Positions 27,473 through 32,191 of a stretch of DNA of 36,090 nt are shown piece after piece; within the stretch, counting starts at the first letter, position 1, and each line of letters opens with the position of its first letter. The notes beneath the pieces were generated by a model, which was not told where the DNA came from, searched no databases, and saw only the letters and a list, made by a program, of their open reading frames with translations. Origin of the DNA: Patescibacteria group bacterium (GTDB lineage Bacteria > Patescibacteriota > Microgenomatia > 2-02-FULL-39-11). Position numbers and translations under genes: made by a program. The stretch covers positions 1 to 36,090 of the forward strand of contig JAMCUI010000009.1 of NCBI GenBank assembly GCA_023379265.1. Direction: 5' to 3'.

Positions 27473-28765
27473 TTACATCCATTTTATTTTCAAAAAGTGT
27501 GAAGCGCAGCTCATACAAGGATCGTAGGCTCTGACTATTTTTTCAATCTCAAGACTGATTTTTTCTTTTTCCTCCAAATTATTTATATTGTCATTTAGGA
27601 ATTTACTGATACTGCCTTCAATGCCTATCTGGTTCTGGCCGGTGGGTACGACAATTTGGCCCGATTTTATTTTCCCGGCATTGTCCACTTCCAGCCGGTA
27701 GTACAAAGTGCCTCTGGGTGCCTCAATTACTCCTATTCCCGTGCCCTCGTGTCGTGGAGCTATTACTGGTTTCTCCTCTTTCACTTCAAACTTTTTTATA
27801 ATATCTATGGAGGAATCAATTGCATGGAGTATTTCAATTGCTTGAGCTAGATTATTGTGAAAGATATTGGTAGAAGGAAAGAGATTTAGATATTTGGACG
27901 CACTTTTTTGGGTAGCCGGGTGGAGTTTTTCTTTGGCCAGATTGAGTCTGGCAAGAGCGCCAACCATATAGACATTTCCTGCGAATTTATAGCCGGAGGC
28001 ATGAGAATAGGGTATGGCTTTATGTTCTAGAAATTCACCGTATTTTTCCGAAGGTACAGTCTCCCCGTCACTCCTTTTCAGATCACCATAAAGGAAGGAA
28101 TATTCATCGTCGGACAGTCCGGCAAAAACAATATCATCTCTGTTCAATTTTTTGTCTTTTTGGGCTAATATTTCCATAAGGTTCAATATTTTTTCTCTTA
28201 TTGCTTGAAGTTCAGGGATGCTTTTTTGTAAATCTTGTGTCGTTGGCAGTTTAGTAAAACCGCCAACAGTTAGAAACGGAGCATGGACAGATCTGCCTCC
28301 TACTCTTTTTGAGAGGTTGTTTCCTACCGATTTGACAGAAAAAGTGTCATCCAGGAGTTTATGTTCTTCCGGGATTTTTTCGTCAAAGTCCAAAATGGAA
28401 TCATGTCCAAAAAGATCAGGTAGGACAAACACATATAGGTGTAACGCATGGTCCCTTATGATAAGCCCGTAATTTAAGAGTTTACGAAGTGTGATTGTCT
28501 GTTCTGTTGGTGTCAAGCCAATTGCGTTTTCCACTGCTTTTAGGGCACAAAGAAGATGTGCATTGGAACACGTTCCACAAATACGGGCTGTCAGCTGTGG
28601 GAGAGCAATGATGTCTTTTCCTCTTATTGCTTGTGTATAAAATCTTTTATATTCGGCAATTGAGAACTTCACATCCTGTACATTACCGTTTCTGACCTTT
28701 ACATTGCAGGCGGCTTTTCCTTCTATCTTTGATATGTCTGCTAAGGATAAATCCAGATCGTGCAT
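27473..28765 (-). CDS. NiFe hydrogenase large (catalytic) subunit
   Basis: L1 motif ARICGTCSNAH and L2 motif DPCMSCASHFLKIKWM at the C-terminus. Confidence 0.95.
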   Translation of the reverse strand: MHDLDLSLADISKIEGKAACNVKVRNGNVQDVKFSIAEYKRFYTQAIRGKDIIALPQLTARICGTCSNAHLLCALKAVENAIGLTPTEQTITLRKLLNYGLIIRDHALHLYVFVLPDLFGHDSILDFDEKIPEEHKLLDDTFSVKSVGNNLSKRVGGRSVHAPFLTVGGFTKLPTTQDLQKSIPELQAIREKILNLMEILAQKDKKLNRDDIVFAGLSDDEYSFLYGDLKRSDGETVPSEKYGEFLEHKAIPYSHASGYKFAGNVYMVGALARLNLAKEKLHPATQKSASKYLNLFPSTNIFHNNLAQAIEILHAIDSSIDIIKKFEVKEEKPVIAPRHEGTGIGVIEAPRGTLYYRLEVDNAGKIKSGQIVVPTGQNQIGIEGSISKFLNDNINNLEEKEKISLEIEKIVRAYDPCMSCASHFLKIKWM

Positions 28766-28782
28766 TTTTGATGTAATAAAAT

Positions 28783-29262
28783 TTAGATTATTCCAAACTC
28801 CTTCAGATATTTATTTACTACGTTTAGAAATATATTTTCGTCCATTGGGCATCCCGGTACCTGATCATCGACAGTTACCACTTCCGATAGCCTTTTTACC
28901 TTATCGGCATACTGGAACCTGATAAGTATATTTTTTATTTCCTCTCTAGTCATCTGGTCAAACAGATTCCTTTGAGAAGAAGGCATGCCTACACAAGCAC
29001 AGGCGCCTATAGCTACTAGTCTTTTTGACTCTTTTCTGATCTCCAAAAGTTTCTTTTCCTGTTTTTGGGAAGTGATGGCACCTTCGACAAAGGCCACATC
29101 CAGGTCTTTTATTTCACTCTTTTTTTGCAGTACCAGCGCAGATTTTATATCCAGAAGGTTTTTCCATTCCATGTAATGATCGTTTAGGATTTCAGTAAAA
29201 ATGATTGTGGAGTCTTCACAACAAGAAAAGGAAAACCAGCCGATTTTAAGTTTTTTGGGCAT
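28783..29262 (-). CDS. NiFe hydrogenase small subunit
   Basis: IGWFSFSCCEDSTIIF, IGACACVGMPSSQRN, DQVPGCPMDENIF; immediately upstream of the large subunit. Confidence 0.9.
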   Translation of the reverse strand: MPKKLKIGWFSFSCCEDSTIIFTEILNDHYMEWKNLLDIKSALVLQKKSEIKDLDVAFVEGAITSQKQEKKLLEIRKESKRLVAIGACACVGMPSSQRNLFDQMTREEIKNILIRFQYADKVKRLSEVVTVDDQVPGCPMDENIFLNVVNKYLKEFGII

Positions 29263-29371
29263 GTCTATAAGATACTGCCGGACAGATTTTCAGTCAATAA
29301 GAAATTTTGACACTTATATCTTAAAAACAAGTAACATGTTTCCTACTAGGTTGTGAATCGATTTTCACCTT

Positions 29372-29393
29372 CCTGCCTCGCCGGCAAGGCGGG
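29372..29393. repeat. GC-rich REP-like palindrome
   Basis: CCTGCCTCGCCGGCAAGGCGGG: self-complementary GC-rich element in an AT-rich intergenic region. Confidence 0.55.
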
Positions 29394-29469
29394 CGCAAGA
29401 ATGACACTTGTTTTGATGGGATAGCCTCAGAAATTTTGATAAAAGAGGGTAAAATGATATAATTCATAT

Positions 29470-29935
29470 GATCTGCGGAGGCCGGATAACCGCCCAGTAA
29501 AATTCCTCAGAATTTTACTGGGAGGAAAGTCCAGACTGCTGAAGGCAGGGGACGGGTGGTAACACCCGATACCGAAGTTATATCGGGACTGGTGATCCAG
29601 ATGCGAAAGCTGACGGATACGATTCCGGAAGCAACCGGATGAGAGAGCCACAGAGACGACCCTTCGACTTCGCTCAGGGTAAAGCAATTTATCCGGGCAT
29701 GTTGGAGGTATGAAACGATAAAGGCAATCCCACCTGCAGCAATTTCCGAACGGTCCGAAAAAGACGGATGTCTTCCCGAATTTGCCCAGTAAAAAATCTG
29801 ACGATTTTTACTAGGGTAAAGCGGACCAAAGTACGAAAGCACCCCGTAAATACGGGGCGGTAGGGTGATAATTATCATCAACCGAGAGAAATGGTTATCT
29901 TAAAACAGAATCTGGCTTACGAGCTTCCGCAGATC
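29470..29935 (+). ncRNA. rnpB: RNase P RNA (bacterial type A)
   Basis: P1 GATCTGCGGA...TCCGCAGATC; GGAGGAAAGTCCAGACT; CCACAGAGACGA; TGAAACGATAAAGGCAATCCCA; GGTAAAGCGGACCAAAGTACGAAAGC; ACAGAATCTGGCTTAC. Confidence 0.95.
29659..29680. repeat. REP-like palindromic element embedded in rnpB
   Basis: ACCCTTCGACTTCGCTCAGGGT. Confidence 0.6.
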
Positions 29936-30321
29936 AATTTTAATATATCCTCCACTTCCTTTTCCGTTTCGGCAACTCTCTTTTTATCACGGGGAATACC
30001 AATAAGCAGTATTTTTTTAATCTTTCCCAATTTTGTCAGGATACCTATATCAATTGGTAAGTCATAATCATGTACAGTTACTCTCGGTGATAAGCTGAAA
30101 TTATCAAGATTGTGAAAAACGGTTACCCTTTTTATACCATACACAGTATCAATAAGAGTAAACCCATCTTTCAGATGAAAAGGATTAATCTCTTCAGTCG
30201 GATCAAGATGAATAAATTTTACATGAGGAAATTTCTTTTTAAGTAGGGGAATGAAGAGAAATACCGTATTGTCATTCTTATAAGTCTGATTTCCTAAATA
30301 ATAGACTGCTTTGTGATGCAT
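29917..30321 (-). CDS. Hydrogenase maturation protease (HycI/HyaD-like, diverged)
   Basis: YYLGNQTYKNDNTVFLFIPLL (cf. GNxxxxDD), HLDPTEEINP, LIDTVYGIKRVTVF, TVHDYDLPIDIGILTKLGKIKKILLIGIP; located beside hydrogenase genes. Confidence 0.75.
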   Translation of the reverse strand: MHHKAVYYLGNQTYKNDNTVFLFIPLLKKKFPHVKFIHLDPTEEINPFHLKDGFTLIDTVYGIKRVTVFHNLDNFSLSPRVTVHDYDLPIDIGILTKLGKIKKILLIGIPRDKKRVAETEKEVEDILKLICGSS

Positions 30322-30327
30322 TTAGTT

Positions 30328-31062
30328 TTAACTGTTAGCGTATTTAATTGCCTGATGGGTATAATATGAAAGATTTTTTAACTGTCTGCCGGAAAGCTTC
30401 TGGCAAAATCTTCCCCAATGGTATGAGACAAAGTCTCCTTCATTCAGGTTTTTCCGACGGATATCCTTTTCCCCCTGCGTCGAAATGGTACGCAAAAGAT
30501 TTCTATCAAGTGATATTCTACCTCCCTTTTCTGACAATCCCTGTGTTTTTACGATCAGCTTATCTGGGAGTATTTTTTCGACTTTCCCCCAATTTATGAT
30601 GCAGGCGTCCATGGTAGACAGCGTGTGTGCTATATCCAAATGGCCAGTACGCCGGTATACATTCATGACATGAAAAGCATGGTGGGGAAGCGCTCCTTTA
30701 TCTATTTTCTCCATAAGTATGCTCACCGCCTCTTTTTTAATTTTCCTTTTAAGATCTAAAGTTTCAGTAAGATGTCTGGCAAATGGTTTGGCATAAACTT
30801 TGGTTAGGAGACTGTTACCCAACCAGTATGCTTCAACGACACGCGGATCAAAAGGATCCTTTATCCCGTTCTCATAGGATATGAGTTGAAGATAATTGTA
30901 AAGAGTATGAAACTGCTCTAAAATTTCACCAGTTCCGCGATCCACGTTGCCGGTTTGGGTATACCAGGAAAGGTCAATATTTTTCTCAGGTGGGCCGCAC
31001 AACGCAAGAGAATTTGGAGGATTTGAGTATCGGCAACAGAGAGCCAATCCTTGTGGATTCAT
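30328..31062 (-). CDS. DUF6390-like hydrogenase-associated protein
   Basis: ALCCRYSNPPNSLALCGPPE...; family assignment from memory plus position. Confidence 0.6.
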   Translation of the reverse strand: MNPQGLALCCRYSNPPNSLALCGPPEKNIDLSWYTQTGNVDRGTGEILEQFHTLYNYLQLISYENGIKDPFDPRVVEAYWLGNSLLTKVYAKPFARHLTETLDLKRKIKKEAVSILMEKIDKGALPHHAFHVMNVYRRTGHLDIAHTLSTMDACIINWGKVEKILPDKLIVKTQGLSEKGGRISLDRNLLRTISTQGEKDIRRKNLNEGDFVSYHWGRFCQKLSGRQLKNLSYYTHQAIKYANS

Positions 31063-31068
31063 CAGAAA

Positions 31069-31998
31069 TTATTTGGAAAGCAAGTCCGGAATAAACTCTG
31101 TTTTTCTTTTGTTTGACATTAGAAATGTGATGAATGTTACCCCCAAAAAAGTCAATAAAGTACTTATCATTTGTTGTGATATGACAAATGATTGGTGATT
31201 GGCGACTAATGACAAAATGTTAGTAATCGGTGTGGCAAGTACAAGAATTGACGAGACTATCGTTGCTGGTGCATATTTGAGCGCTTTATACCAGGTGAGT
31301 ACATAACCCGTAAGGAAGAGTGTGCTTACGGTCAAAGGGATTATATAGGCAGTGGGAAGATTAAATAACAATCCGAATTTCTGCATGGGAATTGAGAAAG
31401 CAATAAGTATAATTGTCCCAAAAAACATTCTTCCCCAGGCGACTATATCTGCATCAACTCCGGAAAGTGTAATTTTAGCAATGATGTTTTCTGCCGACCA
31501 AAGGAGAGTGGCAGAAAATATGAGCAGTTCTCCTGTGCTTGCCTGAAATCCATGAAATCCTCCGATAAAAAGATTACTGAGAAGTAAAAAGGTGTAGCCT
31601 GCAGTTTGCCATATGTTGAGCCTTTCTCCCAAAATAGGTATAGCCATAAGAGCCACCCAGACAAAAAGAGTTTTGTGTATTAGGTTGGCATTTATTGCTG
31701 CAACCGTGCGCAATCCCTCAAAATAAAGCATAAAGGGTAGACTTCCTCCAACAAGCCCGATTAAAAAAAGTTTTTTCCAGCTAGACACGCTAAGTCCCGT
31801 CAGGATTTTTTTTCTTCCCGAAGCAAGTATGACAAGAGATAGTATTAGAGTAACCCCGCCATTATGAGTGATGTTGAAAACAAAAGGGTCAATTCCTGAT
31901 ACTATCACCTGTTTGTTGTAAAAGATTGAAAAGCCTGATATGCAGGCAGTCAGTATAGCAAAAATTATCCCTTTTTTCATAAATTCAGTTTCCGTCAA
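31069..31998 (-). CDS. EamA/DMT family transporter
   Basis: About ten TM helices in two EamA-like halves; overlaps the hypC 3' end. Confidence 0.85.
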   Translation of the reverse strand: MTETEFMKKGIIFAILTACISGFSIFYNKQVIVSGIDPFVFNITHNGGVTLILSLVILASGRKKILTGLSVSSWKKLFLIGLVGGSLPFMLYFEGLRTVAAINANLIHKTLFVWVALMAIPILGERLNIWQTAGYTFLLLSNLFIGGFHGFQASTGELLIFSATLLWSAENIIAKITLSGVDADIVAWGRMFFGTIILIAFSIPMQKFGLLFNLPTAYIIPLTVSTLFLTGYVLTWYKALKYAPATIVSSILVLATPITNILSLVANHQSFVISQQMISTLLTFLGVTFITFLMSNKRKTEFIPDLLSK

Positions 31999-32191
31999 GT
32001 GACTTTATCAGTTTTCTTATTTTTAATCCTTCCAGTTTTGAGAGTGAACCAACCGCTACATTCCCGGCAATTCTGAGGTATTCACCCGGATATACTTTTA
32101 GTCCATTTCCAACTTTGACAGTTTGTCCGCCCTCTACAATTGCTTTATCTTTTTCCACTCTCAACACTTTATACGGTATGGAAAAGCACAT
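31985..32191 (-). CDS. hypC: HypC/HupF hydrogenase maturation chaperone
   Basis: MCFSIPYKVLRVEKDKAIVEGGQTVKVGNGLKVYPGEYLRIAGNVAVGSLSKLEGLKIRKLIKSL; HypC must start Met-Cys, which places the start at 32191 rather than 32215. Confidence 0.85.
   Translation of the reverse strand: MCFSIPYKVLRVEKDKAIVEGGQTVKVGNGLKVYPGEYLRIAGNVAVGSLSKLEGLKIRKLIKSLDGN

Follow-up and report, generated by a model that had tools for sequence, protein, structure and literature searches.

Our analysis of a 36,090-nucleotide contig stretch (the window) from a Gottesmanbacteria-like genome of the Patescibacteria, or candidate phyla radiation (CPR), suggests that its six-gene hydrogenase locus (Table 1) probably codes for a hyd2-type [NiFe]-hydrogenase, minimal and cytosolic, together with its own maturation module, DUF6390-EamA-HypC, which works free of HypD, HypE and HypF. 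With rather more doubt than confidence, we also propose that Patescibacteria reach the NiFe(CN)2CO cofactor without HypD/E/F, by means of DUF6390, HypC and EamA, and that this module can be exchanged both for HypC-HypD-HypE and for HydG with a HypC::HydE fusion, which would make at least three natural ways to ligate the hydrogenase iron. The data are metagenome-assembled genomes (MAGs), some of whose contigs are short.

In the standard pathway the iron is held by C2 and H51 of HypC and C41 of HypD, and all [NiFe]-hydrogenases are said to require scaffolding by HypC/HypD along with ligand synthesis by HypE/HypF (PMC12134894). Using profile (family) searches, on which the gene absences reported here rest, we found HypD neither in the window's genome nor in any of 374 genomes of its class, with the positive controls (E. 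coli and others) all recovered. It was equally undetected in 20 genomes examined closely (0/20), 14 of them with a hydrogenase, and since some of these are single-contig genomes of 98-99% completeness, they and the 0/374 count rule out that HypD was missed through genome incompleteness. HypE and HypF gave no match above cut-off in the 25 hydrogenase genomes searched (0/25 each), only paralogue domains: a HypE candidate in the window's own genome (G000:C7, 68 bits) lies among thiamine-synthesis-like genes (L061) and was taken as ThiL, and the HypF matches are acylphosphatase, YrdC and TsaD-type fragments. A preliminary description of the locus had missed HypA, HypB, HypD, HypE and HypF in the window; none is in it, and HypA, HypD, HypE and HypF are undetected in the whole genome as well, in a search that did not extend to HypB. 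That description gave the locus correctly and missed the stronger point, which is that HypD, HypE and HypF are not elsewhere in the genome but undetected in genome and class alike. HydE and HydG were also not detected in the window's genome, which rules them out as the source of the ligands there. Like the HypCDEF pathway, the system uses a HypC protein, and both iron ligands of HypC recur in the HypC-like domain of DUF6390; the system differs in that HypD, HypE and HypF are undetected and in that DUF6390 adds a helical domain. We found no prior description of the absence of HypD, HypE and HypF from hyd2 genomes, and apparently functional hydrogenases without HypD across a class would break the rule that HypC, HypD, HypE and HypF are always needed.

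Where DUF6390 occurs, so as a rule does the hydrogenase. A scan found 486 DUF6390 relatives in named genomes, the nearest of them Gottesmanbacteria, and the best 80 of these 486 relatives all come from CPR or unplaced 'bacterium' MAGs and span many Microgenomates and Parcubacteria lineages. Of their 80 loci, 70 have EamA and 69 have a large subunit. Among 380 genomes of the phylum, 59 have a PF00374 large subunit, 13 have HypD and 32 have DUF6390; the large subunit is found in 31 of the 32 DUF6390 genomes (p=5e-28), and the 59 large-subunit genomes divide into 30 with DUF6390 only, 11 with HypD only, 1 with both and 17 with neither (p=6e-4; p=0.04 when collapsed by family). Moreover, within one family (f80), whose large subunits are 75-93% identical, the accompanying module is HypC-HypD-HypE, DUF6390-EamA-HypC, or HypC::HydE with HydG. 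Large subunits as similar as 88-93% are found with each of these three modules. The large subunits of G442 (HypCDE) and G534 (DUF6390-EamA-HypC) are 93% identical, and those of G482 (HypCDE) and G544 (HypC::HydE and HydG) 91% identical. Considering that DUF6390-EamA-HypC takes the place of HypC-HypD-HypE next to an enzyme of 93% identity, it is most plausible that the two modules do the same job.

Our literature search found no publication on DUF6390. Its invariant residues include C22, H128, C154 and H215, and when the HypC profile is aligned to its C-terminus with hhalign (Prob 95.6, E 1.1e-8; Prob 0.7 for a control of HypC against the unrelated small-subunit profile), C2 of HypC pairs with C154 and its H51 position with H215. 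HypC chains are also the best PDB profile matches of DUF6390 (E 0.06), and in Foldseek the best fold match of its model (pLDDT 90) is HypC from the HypC-HypD-HypE complex (E 0.017, prob 1.00, TMt 0.79), with no convincing PDB fold match for the helical domain. Both hhalign and Foldseek thus recover the oligonucleotide-binding (OB) fold of HypC with a Cys before strand 1 and a His ending strand 4; DUF6390 is not, however, a stand-alone protein of 70-90 residues with Cys as residue 2, since it has 244 residues and its Cys is internal at 154. It is not a HypC, yet may work like one in part. As for the small HypC of the window, it scores 22 bits in Pfam, under the cut-off, and a phmmer search of the PDB with this short, diverged protein returned no HypC; its relatives form a clear HypC family. 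The MCxxxP start is present (MCFSIP) and MC is kept in 24/24 hyd2 relatives, whereas a His equivalent to H51 of the E. coli protein is found in 0/24 hyd2 sequences. Judged by sequence, it is as if the role of HypC had been split between the small HypC, with its C2, and DUF6390.

A mechanism can be proposed along these lines. DUF6390 would be a HypC-derived scaffold in which C154/H215 together with C22/H128 might hold the iron, as C2/H51 of HypC and C41 of HypD do, and the small HypC, having C2 only, would hand the iron to the apo-large subunit. EamA may carry a small molecule that the maturation route requires, and the HycI-type protease would cut the 7-residue tail of the large subunit once nickel has been inserted. 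The truncated small subunit could pass electrons, by way of its single, unusual CxxD-ligated Fe-S cluster, to a soluble carrier, for which ferredoxin is the likeliest candidate.

Several of our own results weigh against a HypD/E/F-free module of this kind. Once families are collapsed, the mutual exclusion of DUF6390 and HypD is modest (p=0.04), and in G618 the two occur together. Some of the contigs on which the main swaps rest are short MAG pieces of 5-30 kb, and EamA is missing from some DUF6390 loci, for example in G128, where HypA-like and HypB genes stand beside DUF6390. The sequence-profile match of DUF6390 to HypC is sub-significant by itself (E 0.06), and the fold match is to a common OB fold for which ribosomal S17 and PriB score nearly as high, so that the residue alignment and the genomic context carry the argument for a HypC-like domain. 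The module also holds no recognisable enzyme for making CN- or CO, and a 244-residue DUF6390 without a known catalytic domain cannot obviously be that maker. A module without a ligand-making enzyme would be expected if DUF6390 and EamA had some other hydrogenase job (nickel supply or chaperoning, say) and unrecognised genes elsewhere made Fe(CN)2CO, and G128, with its HypA-like and HypB genes in the absence of EamA, fits such a role. We nevertheless consider it unlikely: the swap at the locus level involves HypD and HypE and not HypA/B, the HypC-like domain keeps the iron ligands and not a nickel-chaperone motif, and HypF, HypE and HypD are normally strongly conserved and our search controls were positive.

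It is also rather unlikely that the large subunit does without the standard NiFe(CN)2CO centre, having a simpler metal centre or none and a chemistry other than that of H2, with DUF6390 and HypC as plain metal chaperones. The undetected HypD, HypE and HypF, the lack of a recognisable CN/CO source and the altered proximal-cluster ligation of the small subunit would all agree with this, but the four active-site Cys, the Arg of EAPRG and the residues around them are invariant, the tail and protease are retained, and DUF6390-EamA-HypC also serves hyd1 enzymes up to 93% identical to those that use HypC-HypD-HypE. That the host might supply an episymbiont with Fe(CN)2CO, with precursors of cyanide/CO or with maturation proteins, imported through EamA, comes to mind since CPR are mostly thought to be host-dependent and an EamA gene accompanies 70 of the best 80 DUF6390 loci; it seems to us quite improbable, as no evidence on cargo exists for this EamA clade, HypD-bearing CPR exist, and we know of no precedent for the import of a Fe(CN)2CO-type group. 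Hardly credible, finally, is a decaying relic, that is, an inactive leftover hydrogenase. Its distribution is patchy and a few homologues in MAGs contain stops, but reading frames are intact, motifs are invariant across divergent genomes, protease and tail are retained together, and widespread frame disruption was not seen in close relatives.

If DUF6390-EamA-HypC indeed replaces HypD, HypE and HypF, the pairs of nearly identical enzymes whose modules differ offer a direct test of which genes support them and of whether CN and CO are retained. Were CN/CO missing, the active site would be of a new type, and were they present, the biosynthetic route would be new; such a route, if true, could allow heterologous hydrogenase production with few genes. 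Where the CO ligand comes from under anoxia is not yet settled for [NiFe]-hydrogenases in general.

The 17 genomes with neither HypD nor DUF6390 are mostly explained. Six of them carry a HypC::HydE fusion beside a [NiFe]-hydrogenase (Table 1), with HydG adjoining in two (G494, G544). None of the four HydE-bearing genomes tested has an [FeFe]-hydrogenase (PF02906), which rules out that HydE and HydG serve one in these side lineages, and we suggest that HypC::HydE, with or without HydG, represents a radical-SAM route to the NiFe cofactor. Thus these [FeFe]-hydrogenase maturases, although undetected in the window's genome, would in other CPR form a second alternative to HypD/E. Another 6 of the 17 have a different protein of 160-300 residues by HypC and/or EamA, several with a GD..H-like motif, and among the remaining genomes two have long low-scoring proteins and another lacks the L2 motif. 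Unnamed proteins of 228-304 residues with a GD..H-like motif were observed by EamA and/or HypC, in the place of DUF6390 (L204:11398-12174, L212:7923-8684, L215:680-1594, L206:4915-5676, L211:2222-2908); they are possibly very diverged analogues of DUF6390, and the weak similarity of the L206 and L211 proteins to HypC (E about 2e-4) was not relied on. Truncated HypA-like proteins (~85-94 residues, N-terminal part only) adjoin hydrogenase genes in L255:767-1707 (G128), L254, L256 and L257, and in G128 the HypA-like and HypB genes occupy the place of EamA/HypC. In HypD-bearing CPR, short HypF-like proteins (402-472 residues, carbamoyltransferase part only) lie by a second HypC (L220:12219-13427, L221, L222).

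The protease of the window has no Pfam match of its own. Some of its relatives match HycI (cut-off 23 bits), the best scoring 23.8, and the pattern of D17, D58 and H84, which we equate with the metal ligands of HybD, is invariant in 18 relatives; its assignment to the HycI family thus draws on three carboxylate/His ligands and on profile matches that occur only in relatives and near the cut-off. Of the 73 loci with a tailed large subunit, 62 have a protease gene, and of the 31 loci without a tail none does (p=1.5e-17, a value not corrected for relatedness), and as the protease tracks the tail, maturation appears to be under selection. The tail, the protease and a CxxD small subunit co-occur in hyd2, whereas tailless hyd1 enzymes mostly have CxxC. 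DUF6390 is found with both hyd2 and tailless hyd1 enzymes, so its role should be neither proteolysis nor specific to CxxD. In the 31 tailless loci (e.g. L056, L057, L220-L222, L234) the hyd1-type large subunits end at the last L2 residue and no protease gene is nearby; apparently cofactor insertion in these group 3 hyd1-type enzymes proceeds without proteolysis.

The large subunit retains the active-site motifs that the preliminary description had called intact (RICGTCSNAH and DPCMSCASH), with RICGTC and DPCMSC corresponding to the L1 RxCxxC and L2 DPCxxC of group 3b, and its four Cys are invariant in 18 relatives, as also are, among relatives, the EAPRG Arg and surrounding residues. It is closest to archaeal group 3b, from which its best PDB matches also come, and scores 257/250 bits with the NCBIfam models ShyA/HydA as against <=120 for VhuA and FrhA, all far under the equivalog cut-offs, in agreement with the earlier view of a compact group 3-type enzyme whose group assignment is distant. 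Jaffe et al. 2020 recognised two types of 3b-related hydrogenase in CPR: hyd1, which includes beta and gamma subunits, and hyd2, a CPR-only long-branch clade that has a large and a truncated small subunit (mean 164 residues) and a function called 'uncertain'. They also noted a family neighbouring hyd2 that is partly similar to HypC (PMC7304191). In our phylogeny, made without rerunning the published tree, the window enzyme falls in a 19-row hyd2-type clade (support 100/100) on a long branch; by this clade, its 159-residue small subunit and the absence of adjoining beta/gamma genes, we assign it to hyd2 from sequence and context. The locus also resembles published hyd2 in its 3b-related large subunit and the nearby HypC-like family; the main text of that paper mentions neither maturation nor HypD, and the paper does not describe the HypD/E/F absence, the assignment of DUF6390, the CxxD motif or the swapped modules. 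The headline of the preliminary description, the lack of NAD(P)/FAD and additional Fe-S subunits, holds within the locus but was already known, since hyd2 had been described (PMC7304191). HydB/HydG-type (Fe-S, FAD/NAD(P)) subunits are present neither here nor in most hyd2 loci, no dedicated genome-wide diaphorase search having been made.

The closest solved structures are those of Pyrococcus/Thermococcus soluble hydrogenase I (SHI; group 3b, PDB 9nez, 5yxy), for the large subunit as well as the small-subunit fold: our small-subunit model (pLDDT 92) folds like the Pyrococcus SHI delta subunit (Foldseek E 3e-10) and ends after the proximal-cluster domain. SHI, however, is a four-subunit NADPH enzyme with CxxC proximal ligands, whereas the window locus has no diaphorase and CxxD. 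We found C-[CS]-x-D-[SN] in place of the expected CxxC in 58/58 distinct hyd2 small subunits, chosen by flanking motif, with the GxCA cysteine in 58/58 and the GCPM cysteine in 51/58 by strict pattern, for which a cluster with three Cys and one Asp ligand would be the simplest reading. A NuoB-like tandem CC was ruled out: both the first Cys and the Asp are kept in 58/58, but Ser replaces the second Cys in 10/58. A 2-oxoacid:ferredoxin oxidoreductase pair adjoins the cassette in five loci of the class (L047, L049-L052), hinting at ferredoxin as electron partner; no similar oxidoreductase or fusion genes are in the window. Four of the five (L049:5507-10990, L050, L051, L052; G072, G040, G096, G017) also have near the hyd2 cassette all or part of an unusual 972-residue fusion, in which an acyl-CoA-synthetase (ADP-forming)-like protein is joined to an FNR-type FAD/NAD domain.

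Table 1. Features of the hydrogenase locus in the window, with the HypC::HydE fusions of other genomes
Feature	Position	Strand	Remarks
[NiFe]-hydrogenase large subunit, hyd2 (3b-related)	27473..28765	-	four active-site Cys, EAPRG Arg, 7-residue C-terminal extension FLKIKWM
Truncated small subunit, 159 aa	28783..29262	-	proximal-cluster domain only; first CxxC replaced by C14-C-E-D17; C88, C138 retained
RNase P RNA gene, class A, divergent	29474..29935	+	87.3 bits against gathering score 100, E 5.6e-27
HycI-type maturation protease, diverged	29917..30321	-	D17, D58, H84 match metal ligands
DUF6390, 244 aa	30328..31062	-	N-terminal helical domain (C22, H128) and C-terminal HypC-like OB domain (C154, H215); putative stand-in for the HypD scaffold
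EamA/DMT-family transporter	31069..31998	-	conserved neighbour of DUF6390 across CPR
Small HypC chaperone	31985..32191	-	MC...P N-terminus kept; His equivalent to HypC H51 lost
HypC::HydE fusions	L210:6779-9432 (G544), L258:2636-5378 (G494), L208:2336-3646 (G495), L244, L246, L248

An open reading frame (ORF) check and Pfam bore out the positions and families first proposed for the six ORFs (NiFeSe_Hases 108, Oxidored_q6 64, DUF6390 173 and EamA 96 bits); the predicted HypC ORF begins upstream at TTG, its true start being MCFSIP, and the gene end at 32191 is correct. The large subunit is present in 30/138 relatives, and most of these loci hold the same six genes. The locus is not a product of chance, as this gene combination is found again in most class loci with a large subunit and, in 80 loci of CPR type, around DUF6390. 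In most relatives HydS-HydL and protease-DUF6390-EamA-HypC are convergent; the window has the HydS-HydL pair inverted relative to the rest, probably by local rearrangement. An RNase P RNA gene on the opposite strand, which is not part of the hydrogenase system, splits the locus between its small-subunit and protease sides, and it rules out an ORF for a missing subunit within 29263-29916. With its long insertions this gene scores below the Rfam gathering score and was missed by a scan at that threshold.

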